Assembly: GCF_947496075.1 (NCBI RefSeq)
Contig: NZ_CANMBJ010000001.1
Span: 620,001-684,000, forward strand
Length of the DNA stretch: 64,000 nucleotides
Direction: 5' to 3'
DNA from: an uncultured Tateyamaria sp.
GTDB lineage: Bacteria; Pseudomonadota; Alphaproteobacteria; Rhodobacterales; Rhodobacteraceae
This document shows positions 11,895-64,000 of this stretch, in pieces. The translations under genes were made by a program, and so were the position numbers. A model generated the notes under the pieces. The model did no database searches. It had not been told where the DNA came from and saw only the letters and a program-made list of their open reading frames with translations. Every line of letters begins with the position of its first letter. The stretch's first letter is position 1.

Positions 11895-12151
11895 ATACCA
11901 AGCGCTTCCTTATACATCTCCAGAACGGCTTCCTCTTCGGCGATGTCATCGCTGTCTCGCTTGCGCAGTGCAATCACCTTGCGCATCACCCTGGTGTCGT
12001 ACCCGCGCGCCTTGGCCTCGGCCATCACCTCTTTTTGCTGGTCGGCGATGTCCTTCTTCTCCATCTCAAGCCGTTCAAACCGTTCGACGAACTGACGCAA
12101 CTCATCCGCCGTGACACGGTAGCTTTCGGCATTGGTGGCAGTCTCGGTCAT
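11888..12151 (-). CDS. gapR: GapR-like DUF2312 nucleoid-associated protein
   Basis: 87-aa mostly helical protein of the DUF2312/UPF0335 family, with hallmark residues ADELRQFVERFERLEMEKKDI and EAKARGYDTRVMRKVIALRKR. The characterised Caulobacter member GapR binds overtwisted AT-rich DNA and is needed for chromosome replication and segregation; the same role is inferred here. The gene stands alone, convergent with the HxlR gene. Confidence 0.88.
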   Translation of the reverse strand: MTETATNAESYRVTADELRQFVERFERLEMEKKDIADQQKEVMAEAKARGYDTRVMRKVIALRKRDSDDIAEEEAVLEMYKEALGMS

Positions 12152-12259
12152 TGCGCGCTCCTTAGGATCAGATCAGCCCGCTGGATAGCGGGGCGCGCGC
12201 GGTGCTGCAAGGGGCGTTGGCACCTTGCCATGACGGCAATGCTCGGATAGCCGGAAGGC

Positions 12260-12502
12260 ATGGAACAAGAGACAGCTTTCACCCTGTTGGATGGCTTGAT
12301 CTGGGGCGGGGCCGCATTGTCGGTCATCGGCCTGATCGGCCTTGTCTGGTGCATCATCAAAGTATGGCGGGCGCGTGCTGCAGGCCTGAACGATGCTGAC
12401 ATGCGCGCGGTCATGGCACGGGTGCTGCCACTGAATTTGGGAGCACTGTTCGTGTCGGTCATTGGCTTGATGCTTGTCATCGTTGGCATCTTCCTCAGCT
12501 GA
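12260..12502 (+). CDS. Small two-helix membrane protein
   Basis: 80 aa with two hydrophobic helices (about 12-32 and 56-78) joined by a charged loop (VWRARAAGLNDADMRAVMARVL). No family recognised beyond short integral-membrane proteins common in Roseobacter genomes. It ends 14 bases before the first YeeE/YedE gene, in the same direction and with an RBS (AAGGAG) in the gap. It is probably co-transcribed with the sulfur-related genes. Confidence 0.7.
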   Translation: MEQETAFTLLDGLIWGGAALSVIGLIGLVWCIIKVWRARAAGLNDADMRAVMARVLPLNLGALFVSVIGLMLVIVGIFLS

Positions 12503-12516
12503 TCAAGGAGAAACCT

Positions 12517-12936
12517 ATGTCTATTGACTGGATTTGGGGCCTCGTCGGCGGCGTAATGATCGGGACAGCGGCGGCGGTTCTGCTTCTGGGGACTGGTCGC
12601 ATCATGGGAGCCAGCGGGATCGTTGGCGGGTTGATTGACGGAACAGGTCAAGATCGTTCAACCACATTTGCCTTCCTGATCGGTTTGATCGGGATGCCCG
12701 CGTTGATGACACTTGGCGGCTGGGCGGCAGACACACATGCCACGTCCCTGCCATGGCTTTTGATCATAGGCGGATTGTGTGTCGGGATTGGAACACGCTT
12801 TGCCAACGGATGCACGTCCGGGCACGGCGTGTGTGGGATGTCACGCCTTTCGGTGCGCGGGTTCGTGGCAACGCTCGCCTATATTGGCGCAGGCGCTGCA
12901 ACCGTCACACTCGCGCGCGTGGGGTTGGGCCTGTGA
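12517..12936 (+). CDS. YeeE/YedE-type transporter, half-size subunit A
   Basis: 139-aa membrane protein of the sulf_transp family (DUF395), with four hydrophobic helices and the conserved cysteine motif NGCTSGHGVCGMSRLS. In characterised YeeE (full length) the equivalent cysteines relay thiosulfate through the channel. Half-size pairs (PmpA/PmpB type) occur in sulfide-detoxification operons. An AAGGAG ribosome-binding site precedes the start. The stop overlaps the start of the second half-protein by one base (TGATG). Confidence 0.88.
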   Translation: MSIDWIWGLVGGVMIGTAAAVLLLGTGRIMGASGIVGGLIDGTGQDRSTTFAFLIGLIGMPALMTLGGWAADTHATSLPWLLIIGGLCVGIGTRFANGCTSGHGVCGMSRLSVRGFVATLAYIGAGAATVTLARVGLGL

Positions 12937-13367
12937 TGCGGGGTTTCATCGCCCTGCTGAGTGGCGCTCTGTTCGGCGCGGGCCTGCATATATCGGGTAT
13001 GACCAATACTGCCAAAGTACGCGGCTTTCTTGATTTCGCCGGTGCCTGGGACCCAACACTGGCTTTTGTCATGGGAGGCGCCATGCTGCCCATGGTTTTT
13101 GCCTGGCGGTTGACCCGTGGCCGCACACCGCTGACGGGCGGCAGCTACCCTGCCCCGCCGCGTTCCGAAATCACCCGCCCCCTGATCGCGGGATCCATCC
13201 TGTTTGGTATCGGGTGGGGGCTGGTCGGTCTCTGTCCGGGCCCGGCACTCGCATCCATCACCTATGGCGGTTGGCAGGGTGTGCTGTTCCTCGTTGCCAT
13301 GCTGGCTGGCATGTGGGCGGTTCCACCACTGCGACTTGGTCTGGACAGACTGATGCCCACGACATAA
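12936..13367 (+). CDS. YeeE/YedE-type transporter, half-size subunit B
   Basis: 143-aa membrane protein complementing subunit A. Start 12936 makes a TGATG junction with the upstream gene and begins exactly at the family N-terminus (MRGFIALLSGALFGAGLHISGMT). The second half carries the partner cysteine motif GLVGLCPGPALAS. Together A and B would build one channel for a reduced sulfur compound. The DUF442 gene follows after 9 bases. Confidence 0.88.
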   Translation: MRGFIALLSGALFGAGLHISGMTNTAKVRGFLDFAGAWDPTLAFVMGGAMLPMVFAWRLTRGRTPLTGGSYPAPPRSEITRPLIAGSILFGIGWGLVGLCPGPALASITYGGWQGVLFLVAMLAGMWAVPPLRLGLDRLMPTT

Positions 13368-58489: not shown

Positions 58490-58583
58490 GGATAAGTTCG
58501 ACTATCTCGAATTTAACATGCAATATTATTCAATATCCTGCTTTTAAGCTTCGCGCTAGCCTGCCGCAAGGGAGGATATGCCG
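58490..58583. promoter_or_regulatory. LysR/operon divergent promoter region with CAATAT direct repeats
   Basis: AT-rich 94-base gap. The direct repeat CAATAT occurs at 58521-58526 and 58531-58536 (10-base period), a spacing that would put the two sites on the same helix face. GGGAGG (58571-58576) is the ribosome-binding site for the dehydrogenase. Operator assignment is an inference. Confidence 0.5.
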
Positions 58584-60053
58584 ATGACTGCAGAACGGTA
58601 TCAGATGCTGATCAATGGTGCCTGGGTCGATGCATCGGATGGCGCCCGGTTTGACAGCCTCTGCCCGGCAACGGGCCATGTCTGGGCCACGGTGCCAGAG
58701 GCCACCCCGCAGGACGTGGATCGCGCGGTACAGGCAGCAGCGGATGCCATGTCAGGTCCATGGGGGCAGATGACGCCTACAGCGCGCGGTAAGTGTCTGA
58801 CAAAGCTCGCTGATCTACTGGCTGCGAATTCAGAAGCCATTGGCCGGATCGAAACCACAGACACAGGCAAGATGTTCAAGGAAACCGCGTGGCAGGCGAC
58901 ATATATCGCCGAATACCTGCATTTCTACGCAGGGGCTGCGGACAAGATACAAGGGGAAACCCTGCCCATCGACAAACCGGACATGTTTGTCTTCACCGAC
59001 CGTGAACCGATTGGCGTAGTGGCCGCCGTTGTCCCGTGGAACAGCCAGATGTTCCTGAGCGCGGTCAAGATCGGCCCGGCCCTCGCCGCAGGCAACACCA
59101 TCGTACTCAAGGCATCCGAACACGCATCAGCCCCCCTGCTGGAATTCGGCAAGCTGGTGGCACAGGCCGGTATCCCCGACGGCGTCGTCAACATCGTCAC
59201 CGGCGGCCCGGTTTGTGGAACTGCACTCACCACGCATCCCCTGGTTGCCAAGATCGCCTTCACCGGTGGCCCAGACGCAGCCCGCCACATCGTGCGCAAC
59301 TCGGCTGAAAACTTCGCCGAGGTCTCGCTTGAACTTGGCGGGAAGTCCCCGTTCATCGTCTTTGACGACGCGGATCTCGAAAGCGCGGTCAATGGTTCTG
59401 TTGCCGGGATTTTCGCCGCCACCGGGCAAAGCTGCGTCGCAGGCTCGCGGCTCTATCTGCACGAAGACATCGCAGACGCCTTTCTGGAAAGGATGGTCGC
59501 GATTGCCAAGAATATTCGCATTGGTGACCCGCAAGCAGACGAGACCGAAATGGGCCCCCTCTGCACCCCGGGACAATTGCAACACATCGAAGCGCAAGTC
59601 GCCCTCGCAACAGAAGAAGGCGGCACAGTGCTGGCCGGTGGCCAGCGGGCCGACCTGGACGGGCTGTATTACCAGCCGACCATTATCGAGTGCCCGCGTC
59701 AGGGCATGACGATCGTGGACACGGAGCTCTTTGGCCCCGTCCTCGCCGTGCAACGCTTCCGAACCGAGGAAGAAGTTGTCGCGCTTGCCAACGACACCAA
59801 ACACGGCCTTGCCGCGGGCATTTTCACCCGTGACGCCGCGCGATCCCTGCGCATGTCCAAGCGCGTCAAGGCGGGCATCATCTGGGTCAACACCTACCGC
59901 GCCATCAGTCCGATTGCAGCTTTCGGTGGCCTGAAGTCCAGCGGCTATGGGCGCGAGGCGGGCTTACAAGCCGTCTATGACTACACCCGCCCCAAGACGG
60001 TTTGGATGAACCTCTCGGACGCACCCATCGCAAATCCTTTCAAGCCAAGGTGA
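58584..60053 (+). CDS. NAD(P)-dependent aldehyde dehydrogenase
   Basis: 489-aa oxidoreductase converting an aldehyde to the acid. Catalytic Cys284 is in ATGQSCVAGSRLYL, the general base Glu in SLELGGKSPFIVFDD, and the NAD fold in GVVAAVVPWNSQMF. Start 58584 is preferred over 58578 because GGAGG then has the normal 8-base spacing. It resembles betaine/succinate-semialdehyde types, but the substrate is unknown. First gene of the operon, 4 bases before the monooxygenase. Confidence 0.93.
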   Translation: MTAERYQMLINGAWVDASDGARFDSLCPATGHVWATVPEATPQDVDRAVQAAADAMSGPWGQMTPTARGKCLTKLADLLAANSEAIGRIETTDTGKMFKETAWQATYIAEYLHFYAGAADKIQGETLPIDKPDMFVFTDREPIGVVAAVVPWNSQMFLSAVKIGPALAAGNTIVLKASEHASAPLLEFGKLVAQAGIPDGVVNIVTGGPVCGTALTTHPLVAKIAFTGGPDAARHIVRNSAENFAEVSLELGGKSPFIVFDDADLESAVNGSVAGIFAATGQSCVAGSRLYLHEDIADAFLERMVAIAKNIRIGDPQADETEMGPLCTPGQLQHIEAQVALATEEGGTVLAGGQRADLDGLYYQPTIIECPRQGMTIVDTELFGPVLAVQRFRTEEEVVALANDTKHGLAAGIFTRDAARSLRMSKRVKAGIIWVNTYRAISPIAAFGGLKSSGYGREAGLQAVYDYTRPKTVWMNLSDAPIANPFKPR

Positions 60054-60057
60054 AATC

Positions 60058-61089
60058 ATGAAATTTCAACTCGCCATCAACCTGGAGCGCATGAACGATA
60101 CCACCGCGATGACGGATGTACGCGACCATACGCTTGAGATGGTAAAGACAGCCGATCACGCCGGGTTCGAGGTGGTGTGGGCGGCCGAACATCACGCGCT
60201 TGAAATGACCATCGCGCCGAACCCGTTCCAACTGATGACATGGTGGGCGAACCACACCCAAAACATCCGTATCGGCTGTGGGGTCGCCAACGCATCCTAT
60301 TGGCACCCGATCAACCTGGCCGGAGAGGCGGCGATGGTCGATCTGTTGTCCGACGGACGCTTGGAACTGGGACTGGGATCAGGTGCCTACCAGCGTGAGT
60401 TTGACCGGATGCACCCGGGCCTTGATCAAAAGGACAGCCATCATTTCATGCAGGAAATGATGCCACTGGTGCGCAAGCTGTGGAAAGGCGATGTCGAACA
60501 CAACGGCGAAAAATGGCAGTTCCCGAAATCCACCGCCTGCCCCAAACCGTTGCAGGACGAAGTTCCGATGTGGGTCGCCGCGCGGTCGCCCATCACCTTT
60601 GACTATGCCGTTGCCAATGATTGCAACGTGATGTGCTGGCCTTTGACGATGCCCATGTCCGAAGCGGAGAAGTACAAACAGCAACTGGATGAAGCCGTGG
60701 CCAAGGCGGGTGGCTGGAACCGCACTTTCGCCCTGATGCGCCACACAGCGGTTTATGAGACAGAGGCCGACAGGGCCTCCGTTTTGACCGCCGTGCGCAG
60801 CGCCCTCGGCCGGTTTGGCAATCTGATGATGAAAAAGGGGGACGTCATCAATGGCTTCCCCGAAATCGTGCCGTTGGATGAATTGGAAGGCAATGTCAGG
60901 GTGGACCCGGACATGCTGGAAGAGAACCTTGTATTCGGATCCCCCGAACAGGTCATCGCCAAACTGAAAGCCTACGAAGCCTTGGGCGTTGACGCCTTTA
61001 TCTACTACGCCTCGATGGGGCTCGATATGGAGGTACAGAAACGCTCCATGGACCTGTTCATCACCAAAGTCATGCCGGAGTTTGCCTAA
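60058..61089 (+). CDS. Luciferase-like flavin-dependent monooxygenase (LLM)
   Basis: 343-aa TIM-barrel enzyme using reduced flavin and O2. It has the family's VVWAAEHHALEM, IRIGCGVANASYWHPINLAGEAAMVDLLSDGRLELGLGSG and the C-terminal MEVQKRSMDLFI. It needs a flavin reductase, which is not in this window. LLMs open rings or cleave carbon-sulfur or carbon-nitrogen bonds. Its stop overlaps the AA_synth start by one base (TAATG). Confidence 0.92.
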   Translation: MKFQLAINLERMNDTTAMTDVRDHTLEMVKTADHAGFEVVWAAEHHALEMTIAPNPFQLMTWWANHTQNIRIGCGVANASYWHPINLAGEAAMVDLLSDGRLELGLGSGAYQREFDRMHPGLDQKDSHHFMQEMMPLVRKLWKGDVEHNGEKWQFPKSTACPKPLQDEVPMWVAARSPITFDYAVANDCNVMCWPLTMPMSEAEKYKQQLDEAVAKAGGWNRTFALMRHTAVYETEADRASVLTAVRSALGRFGNLMMKKGDVINGFPEIVPLDELEGNVRVDPDMLEENLVFGSPEQVIAKLKAYEALGVDAFIYYASMGLDMEVQKRSMDLFITKVMPEFA

Positions 61090-61685
61090 TGCCTGCCGAA
61101 ATTCGCAGAACGATCCTCAACATTCAGGACACCCATATCGAGGGTTGGAAGAAGGTCGAAACGCCCACACGCCTTGTCGCAGCAATGGCCATCATCAAAA
61201 ACCCATGGTTCGGGCGCGGTCATGTCGAAAACCTGCGCCCCGAGATCCGCGAGATCGGGCCGGAAATTGGTGCGCTGCTGACCAAGATGATCCTGGATGT
61301 GACCGGCGACAAACTCGAAGGCTACGGCAAGGCGTCTGTTGTCGGAATGGGCGGTGAGATTGAGCACGCCCAGGCACTGACGCACACGCTTTGGTTTGGC
61401 AACAAGTACCGCGAAGCCGTGAACGCGCAGTCCTACCTGGTCTTTGCAAACACACGTGGCGCTGCCGGAACATCACTGATGATACCGCTGATGAACAAGG
61501 ACGATGGCGGCATGCGATCACATTACCAGACCATCCACCTGTCGGTCCAAGACGCCCCGGCCGAAGATGAGATCATCGTGGCATTGGGCGCATCGATCGG
61601 CGGGCACCCGAACCACCGGATCGGCAACCGTTATGAGGATCTCAAGGAAATGGGACACGACGTGGATAACCCGGCCGGTGTCTGA
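61089..61685 (+). CDS. AA_synth (DUF1185, PF06684) protein
   Basis: 198 aa. Family features: RRTILNIQDTHIEGWKKVETPTRLVAAMAIIKNPWFGRG, GMGGEIEHAQALTHTLWFGNKYREA and IIVALGASIGGHPNHRIGNRYEDL. Structures of PF06684 members show a chorismate-mutase-like (AroH) fold and their role was proposed in amino-acid metabolism, but no reaction has been shown. Here it is locked between a flavin monooxygenase and a hydrolase, which suggests a catabolic step. It overlaps the hydrolase by 8 bases. Confidence 0.9.
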   Translation: MPAEIRRTILNIQDTHIEGWKKVETPTRLVAAMAIIKNPWFGRGHVENLRPEIREIGPEIGALLTKMILDVTGDKLEGYGKASVVGMGGEIEHAQALTHTLWFGNKYREAVNAQSYLVFANTRGAAGTSLMIPLMNKDDGGMRSHYQTIHLSVQDAPAEDEIIVALGASIGGHPNHRIGNRYEDLKEMGHDVDNPAGV

Positions 61686-62469
61686 GGTTGCGCCAGACGG
61701 CACGGCGTATGACCTGACAGGCCCAGCGGATGCGCCCTGCGCGGTGCTGATCCATGGGCTGGGCCTGTCACGTGGGTTGTGGGACCCACATCTGGCCGCG
61801 TTCAAGGGCTGGCGCGTGCTCCGCTATGACCTGTACGGCCACGGCGACAGCGCCCCGGCACCTGCGCCCGCCACATTGACCTTGTTCGCCGACCAGATCG
61901 CCACGTTGATGGACAGCCTTGGCATCGATCAGGCGCACATCGTCGGCTTCTCCATTGGCGGCATGATCAATCGCCGCTTCGCGCTCGATCATCCGGACAA
62001 GTGCCTGTCGCTCGCCATACTCAACTCACCCCACGACCGTGGGACCAAGGCACAGGCCGAGGTCGAAGAACGCGCGCGTGCAGTCCGCGATCAGGGCGCC
62101 TTTTCCACCTTCGACGCCGCGCTCAAGCGATGGTTCACCCCTGCTTACCTTGCCACAGGCGATGGCCCAGCGCAGGTTCGCGCATGGCGCGAGATCGTCG
62201 ATGCAGAAAGTTATGCACAAACCGCCTGGGTTCTGGCCCATGGGGTCCGAGAGCTCACCGGACGCCCAAATGAGATTGCCGTACCTACCCTTGTGATGAC
62301 ATCCGAAAATGACAGCGGTTCAACGCCTGCCATGGCCTATGACATTGCCGCCGAAATTCTGGGCGCTCAGACGATCATCATCCCGCACCTGCAACATCTG
62401 GGCCTGATGGAAGACCCCGACGCCTTCACAAAACCCCTTCTGCAATTCCTGGGAACCCAAGCCACATGA
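61678..62469 (+). CDS. Alpha/beta-fold hydrolase
   Basis: 263-aa hydrolase. Oxyanion loop VLIHGLGLSRGLW, nucleophile Ser92 in VGFSIGGM, acid in TSENDSGS, and His in PHLQHLGLM. The GTG start at 61678 is chosen because it lies 8 bases inside the preceding gene and gives a full hydrolase; an ATG-starting frame 174 bases further upstream would be in the wrong register. Resembles 3-oxoadipate enol-lactonase and related ring-product hydrolases. The stop overlaps the ThDP enzyme's ATG. Confidence 0.85.
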   Translation: MSEVAPDGTAYDLTGPADAPCAVLIHGLGLSRGLWDPHLAAFKGWRVLRYDLYGHGDSAPAPAPATLTLFADQIATLMDSLGIDQAHIVGFSIGGMINRRFALDHPDKCLSLAILNSPHDRGTKAQAEVEERARAVRDQGAFSTFDAALKRWFTPAYLATGDGPAQVRAWREIVDAESYAQTAWVLAHGVRELTGRPNEIAVPTLVMTSENDSGSTPAMAYDIAAEILGAQTIIIPHLQHLGLMEDPDAFTKPLLQFLGTQAT

Positions 62470-64000
62470 CCACCCAAATGAGCGGCGGACAGGCTGCAAT
62501 CGAAGCCCTGAAAGCCGAAGAAACCAGCCATGTCTTTGGCCTGATCGGATCGGCCACGATGGAGATGTTCGACGCACTTTACGACGCGAAGGACATCGCC
62601 TTCATTGGTGTGCACGACGAACGAACCGGGACGCATATGGCAGACGGATTTGCCCGTGCTTCAGGCAAGGCCGGTGTGGTGTTGGCCGGTCAAAACGGCC
62701 CGGGCGCAACAAATCTGGTGACCGGGCTCAGCCAGGCCAAGGCGGCCTTCTCGCCCGTAGTGTCCATCGCGGGAATGCTGGCGCAGGGTCACATCTACCG
62801 CGATGCGTTTCAGGAGGTGGATCAGCAATCGCTTTTCACGCCGGTGACCAAGAAAACATGGACGGTCCCCTCTGCCGATCGCGTGCCGGAACTGTTCCGC
62901 GAAGCCTTTCGGACGGCCCTGTCACCGCGACAGGGTCCGGTGCAGCTCAACCTGCCCCGCGATGTGTTGTCAGCGCAGGCAGAGGTCCCACCGTTTCAAG
63001 AGCCCAAGGGATACAGAAACATGTCTGTCCCCGCAGGCCACCCAGAGAGCATTGCGCATGCGGCCAAGATGCTCGCCGGGGCGACACAACCGGTCATCAT
63101 CGCCGGTGGCGGCATCAAAAACACGCGCGGGCACGAGGAGTCGATTGAACTGGCTGAAACGTTGAACTGCCCCATCGTGACTTCGCCCGGGCATGGTGAT
63201 GCGATCCCCTTCGGACATCCCCTGAACGCCGGGCAGATGGGTCCACGCGGCAATGCCGTCGCCTCGCGTCTGGTCAAGGAAGCGGATGTGATCCTTGCGC
63301 TGGGCACACGGCTGGGGTTCAATGCGACGTTCTACACTTACGACAATATCAACCGCGATGCGGCGATCATCCAGATCGAACTTGAGCCAACCGCCATCGG
63401 GCGCTTCTTTCCTGTCGATCTTGGCATCTGGGCCGATGCGCCCACCGCCGCCCGGCAACTCACAGATGCGCTCAAAGGATTGCAAAACCGCGCCAAGGCC
63501 GACGCCTGGACGAAGGCATTCCAGTCAGAGCGCGCAGCCTTTCTGGCCCAGCGCGACACGGACGCCATCGAAACCAACCCGACCCAGCCGTCCGGCCTGT
63601 TCAAGGCCTTGCGCGGAGTCCTGCCCCGCGACGCGGCCATCACGATGGACGCAGGCACATTGTGCCTGCAAGCCACCGATGCGCTGAACTACTGGACCCC
63701 CGGCAGCCTGTTCACACCGCTCGATTTCGGTCTGGTCGGCTTTTCCATGGCCTGCGGTATGGGGGTGAAATGCGCGCAACCTGACCGGCCGGTCGTCAGC
63801 CTCATGGGCGACGGCGGGTTCGGTATGACAGTCAGCGAACTGTCCACTGCGGTCGACCACAACATCAACACGGTCACGGTCGTGATGAACAACCAATGCT
63901 GGGGGGCTGAAAAAGCCTACCAACGCGATTTCTTCAACGGGCGCTACATCGGGGCTGATGTCTCCAGTCCGCGCTTTGATGAACTGGCGGCACTTTACGG
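62466..64000 (+). CDS. ThDP-dependent enzyme, acetolactate synthase / sulfoacetaldehyde acetyltransferase-like (3' end outside window)
   Basis: 511 residues visible, frame open to the edge. The catalytic Glu52 lies in VHDERTGTHMADGFARASG; AGQNGPGATNLVTGL and SPVVSIAGM follow; the ThDP/Mg motif starts at Gly448 (MGDGGFGMTVSEL) and ends around NNQCWGAEK. The N-terminal third is closest in my recollection to sulfoacetaldehyde acetyltransferase (Xsc), which makes acetyl phosphate from sulfoacetaldehyde, but biosynthetic acetolactate synthase and oxalyl-CoA-type decarboxylases share these motifs. The start overlaps the hydrolase stop by 4 bases. Confidence 0.88.
   Translation, partial: MTTQMSGGQAAIEALKAEETSHVFGLIGSATMEMFDALYDAKDIAFIGVHDERTGTHMADGFARASGKAGVVLAGQNGPGATNLVTGLSQAKAAFSPVVSIAGMLAQGHIYRDAFQEVDQQSLFTPVTKKTWTVPSADRVPELFREAFRTALSPRQGPVQLNLPRDVLSAQAEVPPFQEPKGYRNMSVPAGHPESIAHAAKMLAGATQPVIIAGGGIKNTRGHEESIELAETLNCPIVTSPGHGDAIPFGHPLNAGQMGPRGNAVASRLVKEADVILALGTRLGFNATFYTYDNINRDAAIIQIELEPTAIGRFFPVDLGIWADAPTAARQLTDALKGLQNRAKADAWTKAFQSERAAFLAQRDTDAIETNPTQPSGLFKALRGVLPRDAAITMDAGTLCLQATDALNYWTPGSLFTPLDFGLVGFSMACGMGVKCAQPDRPVVSLMGDGGFGMTVSELSTAVDHNINTVTVVMNNQCWGAEKAYQRDFFNGRYIGADVSSPRFDELAALY

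Follow-up and report, generated by a model that had tools for sequence, protein, structure and literature searches.

The closest described parallel to the system reported here is the breakdown of trigonelline by the Tgn pathway, in which the enzymes TgnA to TgnE reportedly have the roles that Perchat et al. gave them in 2018; the Rut pathway, too, combines a luciferase-like flavin monooxygenase (LLM) with an alpha/beta hydrolase. A conserved, Mgd-linked operon for homarine catabolism in environmental bacteria is said to have appeared in Nature Microbiology in 2026, presumably under the name homABCDER. We analysed a window of 64,000 nucleotides from an uncultured Tateyamaria sp. (assembly GCF_947496075.1, contig NZ_CANMBJ010000001.1, positions 620,001 to 684,000; G000:C1:620001-684000 in our numbering), at whose right-hand end lies an operon for an aldehyde dehydrogenase (ALDH), an LLM, an AA_synth (DUF1185) protein, an alpha/beta hydrolase and a thiamine diphosphate (ThDP)-dependent enzyme. 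The 2026 paper possibly concerns this same operon. The original prediction, made from the DNA letters, described a degradation operon of five genes with gaps of -8 to +4 bases behind a divergent LysR gene; open reading frames (ORFs), Pfam families and junctions all agree with that layout, and the operon does look catabolic. We propose that it probably serves the catabolism of an N-methylated pyridinium carboxylate betaine with release of methylamine, and we tentatively name homarine (N-methylpicolinate) as the most likely substrate.

The same prediction held that no known LLM pathway has this set of genes, and most of the set proved to have a precedent. According to excerpts of PMC7913881 (papers given by PMC number are cited from excerpts throughout), the DUF1185 protein HcdD is homologous to TgnF, the DUF1185 protein of the trigonelline pathway, which in Acinetobacter baylyi enhances the TgnE-dependent oxidation of succinate semialdehyde. 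Clusters that we term Tgn-type, defined by gene context without the A. baylyi ADP1 sequence, share the operon's parts except the ThDP enzyme: LLM, ALDH, AA_synth, hydrolase and flavin reductase genes stand together in Sinorhizobium meliloti pSymA, Leisingera, Thioclava, Pantoea, Arthrobacter and an Acinetobacter baumannii record. The pSymA run comprises GntR, AA_synth, hydrolase, flavin reductase, LLM, ALDH, NIPSNAP, an ATP-binding cassette (ABC) transporter and succinate semialdehyde dehydrogenase (SSADH). Compared with six such clusters, the window's proteins are 42-68% identical for AA_synth, 47-58% for ALDH, 37-40% for the LLM and 28-31% for the hydrolase; GntR and flavin reductase matches occur in all six and a ThDP match in none of them. 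The operon thus contains a TgnF-type DUF1185 protein (196.7 bits on the AA_synth model, with the TgnF homology taken from PMC7913881) and a TgnD-like ALDH at the identities just given; its hydrolase has an alpha/beta hydrolase fold and is just 28-31% identical to the hydrolases of these clusters. In a tree of 48 chosen LLM rows, the eight Tgn-type LLMs form a clade (support 100/100) and the window's LLM falls outside it, in a separate sister clade, so that it is not orthologous to the Tgn-type set standing for TgnB. Solved relatives of the AA_synth protein are 2qtp and 3byq. Two of the records deserve a remark of their own. On a plasmid of Arthrobacter dokdonellae (L055:4353-5512), a Tgn-like cluster that also has a tautomerase-family gene contains a tandem pair of annotated AA_synth genes, which may encode a heteromeric AA_synth; the A. 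baumannii record NZ_CP104448.1 (source of L056), 4.09 Mb long and titled 'plasmid unnamed1', is probably a mislabelled chromosome.

The five-gene order set out in the original prediction recurs in other genomes. A contig scan with an alignment of ThDP enzymes gave at least 592 pattern matches, at least 479 of them encoding relatives, and the best 80 were kept as named loci, whose ThDP proteins are 72-91% identical to that of the window. Gene counts rest on tblastn best hits, and the order was counted in the 61 of 80 loci with at least 4.5 kb upstream of the ThDP gene, the 19 shorter loci being set aside; sequence reaches at least 3 kb beyond the ThDP gene in 61 of the 80. ALDH, LLM, AA_synth, hydrolase and then ThDP stand in order in 34 of the 61, and a divergent LysR gene accompanies 33 of these 34 complete operons. 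Taken singly, hydrolase (57), LLM (50), ALDH (44) and AA_synth (44) genes lie near the ThDP gene in most of the 61 loci; across all 80, the counts are 18 for a short flavin reductase, 26 for the sixth gene described below and 24 for a carboxymuconolactone decarboxylase-like (CMD) gene. By record title the hosts include SAR116, Planktomarina, Roseovarius, Rhodobacteraceae HTCC2150, Granulosicoccaceae, Acidimicrobiales, Hyphomicrobiales and a Chloroflexi metagenome-assembled genome. Since the gene order recurs in such distant taxa, it is more than chance; the operon is real and widespread among marine bacteria. A survey of 295 family genomes, with almost one for each genus, identified ThDP matches at E<=1e-120 in 22, of which 14 are at least 64% identical and eight 45-46%, with none between, and an alignment of 13 ThDP proteins reveals a very conserved subfamily. 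The named loci and the family genomes overlap (for example L063/G032, L075/G001 and L131/G224) and hence are not independent sets. We also observed an agmatinase/arginase-family gene in eight of the 80 loci (L086, at 12067-13050, L087, L089, L093, L102, L112, L119 and L124), directly behind the CMD gene in L086 and L112.

Release of methylamine is suggested by the company that the operon keeps. In L044 a GATase/GXGXG/glutamate-synthase trio lies directly behind the ThDP gene on the same strand; we take it to be Mgs (mgsABC-like, N-methylglutamate synthase), no curated model naming the trio. Five loci (L087, L089, L093, L099 and L119), four titled Roseovarius and one Rhodobacteraceae EL129, carry an mgsABC-like trio together with CMD, HTH-cupin and GmaS-like genes; four of these loci also have a TauD-like gene, and three encode an OpuAC-type betaine-binding protein. 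The GmaS, TauD and OpuAC families were each measured on a single copy (in L087, L093 and L087, respectively): GmaS of L087 scores 649 bits on gln_synth_III (cut-off 469.6), and the TauD-like protein of L093 reaches 292.5 bits, under the cut-off of 313. Among the 295 family genomes, mgsC (E<=1e-150) is present in 94: in 12 of the 14 with the ThDP gene, the window's own genome included, versus 82 of the other 281 (Fisher p=3.2e-5), in 11 of 13 when G253, which has the ThDP gene and no LLM match, is left out (p=9.4e-5), and in 32 of the 48 genomes with a Tgn-type LLM (p=5.7e-8), all three statistics ignoring the relatedness of the genomes. Mgd has been reported to take part in homarine catabolism (report cited in PMC13390433).

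Within the clade of the window's LLM, the surroundings of the core vary. We call the window-type core with its ThDP gene type A. Four genomes (G045, G133, G163 and G187) have the ALDH-LLM-AA_synth-hydrolase run without it (type A-), and a fifth such run, in G021, ends at a contig edge in a genome without a ThDP gene. In G184 an in-frame stop interrupts the ThDP gene (L037:8995-10680), with the other operon frames open. These A- runs and the G184 stop indicate that the ThDP step is dispensable for the core. Type B clusters (L029, L030, L177-L184, L187, L189, L192 and, on the G299 chromosome, L205) are variable, not all parts being present everywhere: RidA, hydrolase, a flavin reductase/CoA-transferase fusion and AA_synth face ALDH, LLM, enoyl-CoA hydratase (ECH), 3-hydroxyacyl-CoA dehydrogenase (HADH), BKACE, ABC transporter, acyl-CoA dehydrogenase (ACAD) and acyl-CoA synthetase (ACS) genes, with GmaS nearby in L177, L180 and L190 and mgsABC in L180. 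G224 is a hybrid, type B-like with a ThDP gene. In the LLM tree, most type A proteins group together with 100/100 support, nested in a larger set that includes type B rows; the Chloroflexi locus L133 (type A) and two A- rows lie outside this main group. In G043 a Tgn-type LLM occurs alongside one of type B, an indication that the two clades act on different substrates; G036 combines a window-type with a type B cluster, and both genomes argue that the clusters are not simply interchangeable.

What we observe of gene content, gene order, LLM clade, separation from Xsc (below) and association with methylamine genes is compatible with the following scheme, in which the substrate and every reaction are inferred, the ThDP step above all. 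A reductase encoded elsewhere, and within the operon in some relatives, would supply reduced flavin to the LLM monooxygenase, which probably makes the first attack on the compound, as originally suggested. The attack would fall on the electron-poor carbon beside the ring nitrogen, and the ring would open to an aldehyde-bearing N-methylformamide. The ALDH could then oxidise the ring-cleavage aldehyde, and the hydrolase, a putative formamide hydrolase if the Tgn pathway as it is said to run is a guide, would take off the formyl group. The TgnF-like AA_synth protein may help the resulting enamine to split into methylamine, which would enter the N-methylglutamate pathway, and a carbonyl acid, which the ThDP enzyme would cleave, most likely by decarboxylation of a 2-oxo acid. 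Schemes weighed on paper were 2-aminomuconate-like, malonate-semialdehyde-like and vinylogous elimination.

The ThDP enzyme had been read as hinting at a C2 sulfonate or phosphonate end product because of its likeness to Xsc, a reading that closer comparison does not support. Its best NCBIfam matches are indeed Xsc models, both below cut-off (TIGR03457, 411.4 against 676.4 bits; PRK07525, 426.7 against 620), whereas TIGR03457 scores of 906.8-1075.9 are reached by three Xsc proteins, two of them annotated and the third encoded in the genome that holds the window; this third one, a bona fide Xsc of 906.8 bits (L196, G000:C4:280644-282359), lies away from the operon. In a tree of 20 chosen proteins with three Xsc rows, whose output carried a long-branch warning, the ThDP clade is sister to Xsc (support 95/97) and the Xsc clade (100/100) does not include the window's enzyme, so that phylogeny places it beside Xsc and not within. 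The two share 31-35% identity and the WGAEK motif, found in all 80 named loci. An Xsc-like desulfonating or dephosphonating acetyltransferase would suit the sister position, the motif and the TauD-like gene seen in six of the 80 loci, but a single query each for Pta and YeiH found no neighbour with >=35% identity in any of the 80, whereas two annotated xsc genes are adjacent to or one gene from pta; methylamine genes occur near the ThDP gene instead. On the cut-offs, the tree position, the true Xsc in the same genome and the missing Pta and YeiH neighbours, we reject membership of Xsc, and consider an operon ending in a C2 sulfonate or phosphonate highly improbable. Among solved enzymes the nearest by fold comparison are the BbmA HKA synthases (29-30% identical), and the excerpts of the BbmA/CsmA literature leave the ThDP reaction unsettled.

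For the substrate itself, Ruegeria pomeroyi DSS-3 offers a link to phenotype. This strain grew less effectively on homarine than on trigonelline, and TgnA/TgnB are unlikely to act on homarine (Heal et al., PMC8269262); R. pomeroyi also depleted a set of metabolites, homarine included, to <=2% within 10 h (PMC12817926). In the genome that matches DSS-3 (G299), a search with the window's LLM at E<=1e-40 returned one match, 65% identical and situated in a type B cluster. No Tgn-type LLM was found in this search, and one would have shown, because such LLMs score about 1e-74 to 1e-77 (G043, G228). A strain using both homarine and trigonelline thus carries the window's LLM clade, which supports the compound class and does not choose between the two. 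A substrate such as trigonelline or another N-methylpyridinium, handled by a second, sister solution to Tgn with another ring-cleavage position, must be weighed: if the ring of trigonelline were cut beside the carbon that bears the carboxylate, a 2-oxo acid would result, and monooxygenase, ThDP decarboxylase, ALDH, deformylase and AA_synth would all find a natural role; AA_synth and ALDH are the parts nearest the Tgn-type clusters; DSS-3 grows on trigonelline (PMC8269262) with a genome showing just the type B LLM; and genomes with a Tgn-type LLM and those with the ThDP gene show no overlap (0/14, p=0.08, not significant). However, the broad occurrence in marine plankton suits homarine at least equally, a different LLM clade is what would be expected for homarine if TgnA/TgnB are unlikely to act on it (PMC8269262), and G043 has Tgn-type and type B LLMs together; on balance we regard trigonelline or another N-methylpyridinium, in place of homarine, as a rather unlikely substrate. 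We give still less weight to the idea that the true substrate resembles carnitine or gamma-butyrobetaine, a longer betaine bearing an acidic side chain, and that the LLM set would treat its head group only. This idea, which we judge improbable, arises from type B, where an LLM 59-66% identical to the window's joins crotonobetainyl-CoA hydratase-, carnitine dehydrogenase-, BKACE-, acyl-CoA dehydrogenase- and CoA ligase-like genes (families measured on L029 only), and from the ThDP gene of the G224 hybrid. Near the ThDP gene, however, such genes are rare (among 80 loci, ACS in 4, ECH in 3, ACAD in 2, BKACE in 1 and HADH in 1, the last two being the hybrid), and the verified carnitine transporter of R. 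pomeroyi, SPO2995-2998 (PMC10130141), appears from its locus tags to lie elsewhere. Judging from gene order, the tags SPO2699-2712 would correspond to the type B cluster; SPO2699-2702 are listed as an ABC transporter with raised expression (PMC9870897) and SPO2708 as a 'carnitine dehydratase' with a fitness effect (PMC10041152), and a literature search found no paper on six neighbouring SPO tags.

Breakdown of an N-methylated pyridinium carboxylate, and of homarine in particular, has several observations to contend with. The substrate assignment is itself inferred, and homarine chemistry on paper ends in 2-oxoglutarate, with no ThDP enzyme needed. Growth of DSS-3 was better with trigonelline than with homarine (PMC8269262), and its genome yielded no Tgn-type LLM, so that the window's LLM clade may serve trigonelline. 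The LLM and hydrolase identities to the Tgn-type proteins (37-40% and 28-31%) are low, and no flavin reductase was found among the ORFs of the window's own operon, including the downstream genome stretch. The ThDP gene is optional, being absent from G045, G133, G163 and G187 and interrupted in G184; G036, in which clusters of the window type and of type B coexist, implies that these two may differ in substrate, and the carnitine-like genes of type B are unexplained by an N-methylpyridinium scheme. Finally, mgsC is common without the operon (82/281), two ThDP genomes (G036 and G099) lack it, and the association ignores kinship.

Relatives of the ThDP enzyme occur in other settings. Those 44-46% identical to the window's protein are preceded by MttB, a class III aminotransferase and two dimethylglycine dehydrogenase (DMGDH)-like oxidases in L031 (2357-11677, R. 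pomeroyi megaplasmid) and L047-L051, a run whose sequence suggests a betaine pathway; in L046 a relative (~45%) lies behind MttB with an OYE-type oxidoreductase. The most divergent member of the subfamily (64%) is paired in L045 (7354-10674) with a choline-dehydrogenase-like GMC gene and not with the LLM set. A carbonyl compound is the plausible ThDP substrate in all these contexts. Decarboxylation of a 2-oxo acid is the likeliest single reaction, a choice we make with some hesitation, and an Xsc-like internal redox reaction or a carboligation is possible. It may be, though we would not yet wager on it, that the ThDP enzymes of this operon form a new sister family of Xsc that catalyses an undescribed step in the breakdown of aromatic betaines, and that a single ring-opening core, spread through marine bacteria, can be followed by any of several interchangeable endings (ThDP, CoA route or none), with relatives of the ThDP ending serving other betaines (the MttB/aminotransferase clusters) and alcohols (the GMC cluster).

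The pathway class, Tgn-like ring opening of N-methylpyridinium betaines, is known, and the variant is new to the resources searched: no published description of the ThDP-containing gene set was found, the text of the 2026 homarine paper lying outside the search. If that paper covers this operon, the reactions of the ThDP and AA_synth proteins and the alternative endings likely remain to be described. The orphan AA_synth (DUF1185) family and the ThDP clade would gain a concrete pathway in which to place their reactions, and the operon in SAR116, Roseovarius, Planktomarina, Granulosicoccaceae and Acidimicrobiales would mark consumers of such compounds and a flow of methylamine. Homarine itself is described as an abundant marine metabolite that has been little studied (PMC8269262).

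The features of the operon are collected in Table 1. The remainder beyond the window was read from the window's own genome (L002, G000:C1:676001-696000; window position = L002 + 56000), which extends the operon to the right, completing the ThDP gene and adding a sixth. Junctions are +4 (ALDH/LLM), -1 (LLM/AA_synth), -8 (AA_synth/hydrolase), -4 (hydrolase/ThDP) and +1 (ThDP/sixth gene); the hydrolase frame is open from 61504, and the GTG start yields the -8 overlap. The ALDH contains ELGGKSP and GQSC, the hydrolase GFSIG and HLQHLG and the ThDP enzyme GDGG...NN and DER, which we take to be catalytic motifs. No SSADH gene occurs in the operon, and one was a best match in just one of the 80 ThDP loci; the rest of the genome was not searched for a copy. 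The 111-residue sixth protein has no Pfam match and is predicted to fold as a dimeric alpha/beta-barrel: its model (pLDDT 89.7) resembles such proteins (best E 6.5e-06), with matches to 4-methylmuconolactone methylisomerase, NIPSNAP, EthD and Dabb entries, and NIPSNAP genes occur in comparable clusters of S. meliloti and Agrobacterium. A gene with an ABC-transporter domain comes after the sixth gene. Further on, L002:13909-16398 (69909-72398 in window numbering) encodes a large protein whose acidic repeats are rich in Asp and Gly and whose C-terminal part appears Hint-like on visual inspection.

Table 1. Operon features in window numbering; the window ends at 64000.
Feature	Position	Strand	Basis
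LysR-family regulator, 281 aa	57644..58489	-	ORF; Pfam HTH_1 + LysR_substrate; divergent
LysR/ALDH intergenic region, 88 bases	58490..58577	.	Presumed control region, judged from the sequence
Aldehyde dehydrogenase (ALDH), 491 aa	58578..60053	+	ORF; Pfam Aldedh; putative substrate as in text
LLM flavin-dependent monooxygenase, 343 aa	60058..61089	+	ORF; Pfam Bac_luciferase; putative reaction as in text
AA_synth / DUF1185 protein, 198 aa, TgnF-like	61089..61685	+	Pfam AA_synth 196.7 bits, cut-off 27
Alpha/beta hydrolase, 263 aa from GTG 61678, PcaD-like	61678..62469	+	Pfam Abhydrolase_1
ThDP-dependent enzyme, 562 aa	62466..64154 (L002:6466-8154)	+	Pfam: three TPP domains
Sixth gene, 111 residues	64156..64491 (beyond window)		After ThDP gene

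Set against known systems, the operon does not match the Rut pathway, as the original prediction had recognised: the two have an LLM and a hydrolase in common, but the hydrolase reaches 68.5 bits on the RutD model, whose cut-off is 238.5, and to our knowledge the ThDP, AA_synth and ALDH proteins have no Rut counterpart. For the Rut and alkanesulfonate pathways, no NCBIfam model among the matches listed, at most 25 for each protein, reached its cut-off for any operon protein. With Xsc the ThDP enzyme has in common the ThDP fold family, a sister-clade position and the WGAEK motif, but it differs in its 31-35% identity, its sub-cut-off scores, the absence of a pta context and the presence of a true Xsc elsewhere in the genome. 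Type B clusters come closer, with an LLM 59-66% and an ALDH 67-74% identical to the window's, a hydrolase and an AA_synth protein; in them, however, RidA, the flavin reductase/CoA-transferase fusion and a carnitine-like CoA route replace the ThDP enzyme, and the AA_synth protein belongs to another subfamily. The Tgn clusters resemble the operon in their LLM, ALDH, TgnF-like AA_synth protein, alpha/beta hydrolase and co-occurrence with mgsC, and their flavin reductase is found in some window-type relatives. In contrast to them, the window's operon has LysR in place of GntR, no SSADH, an extra ThDP enzyme and a barrel protein without a Pfam match, and its LLM (37-40% identical, in a sister clade) and hydrolase (28-31%) have diverged from theirs.

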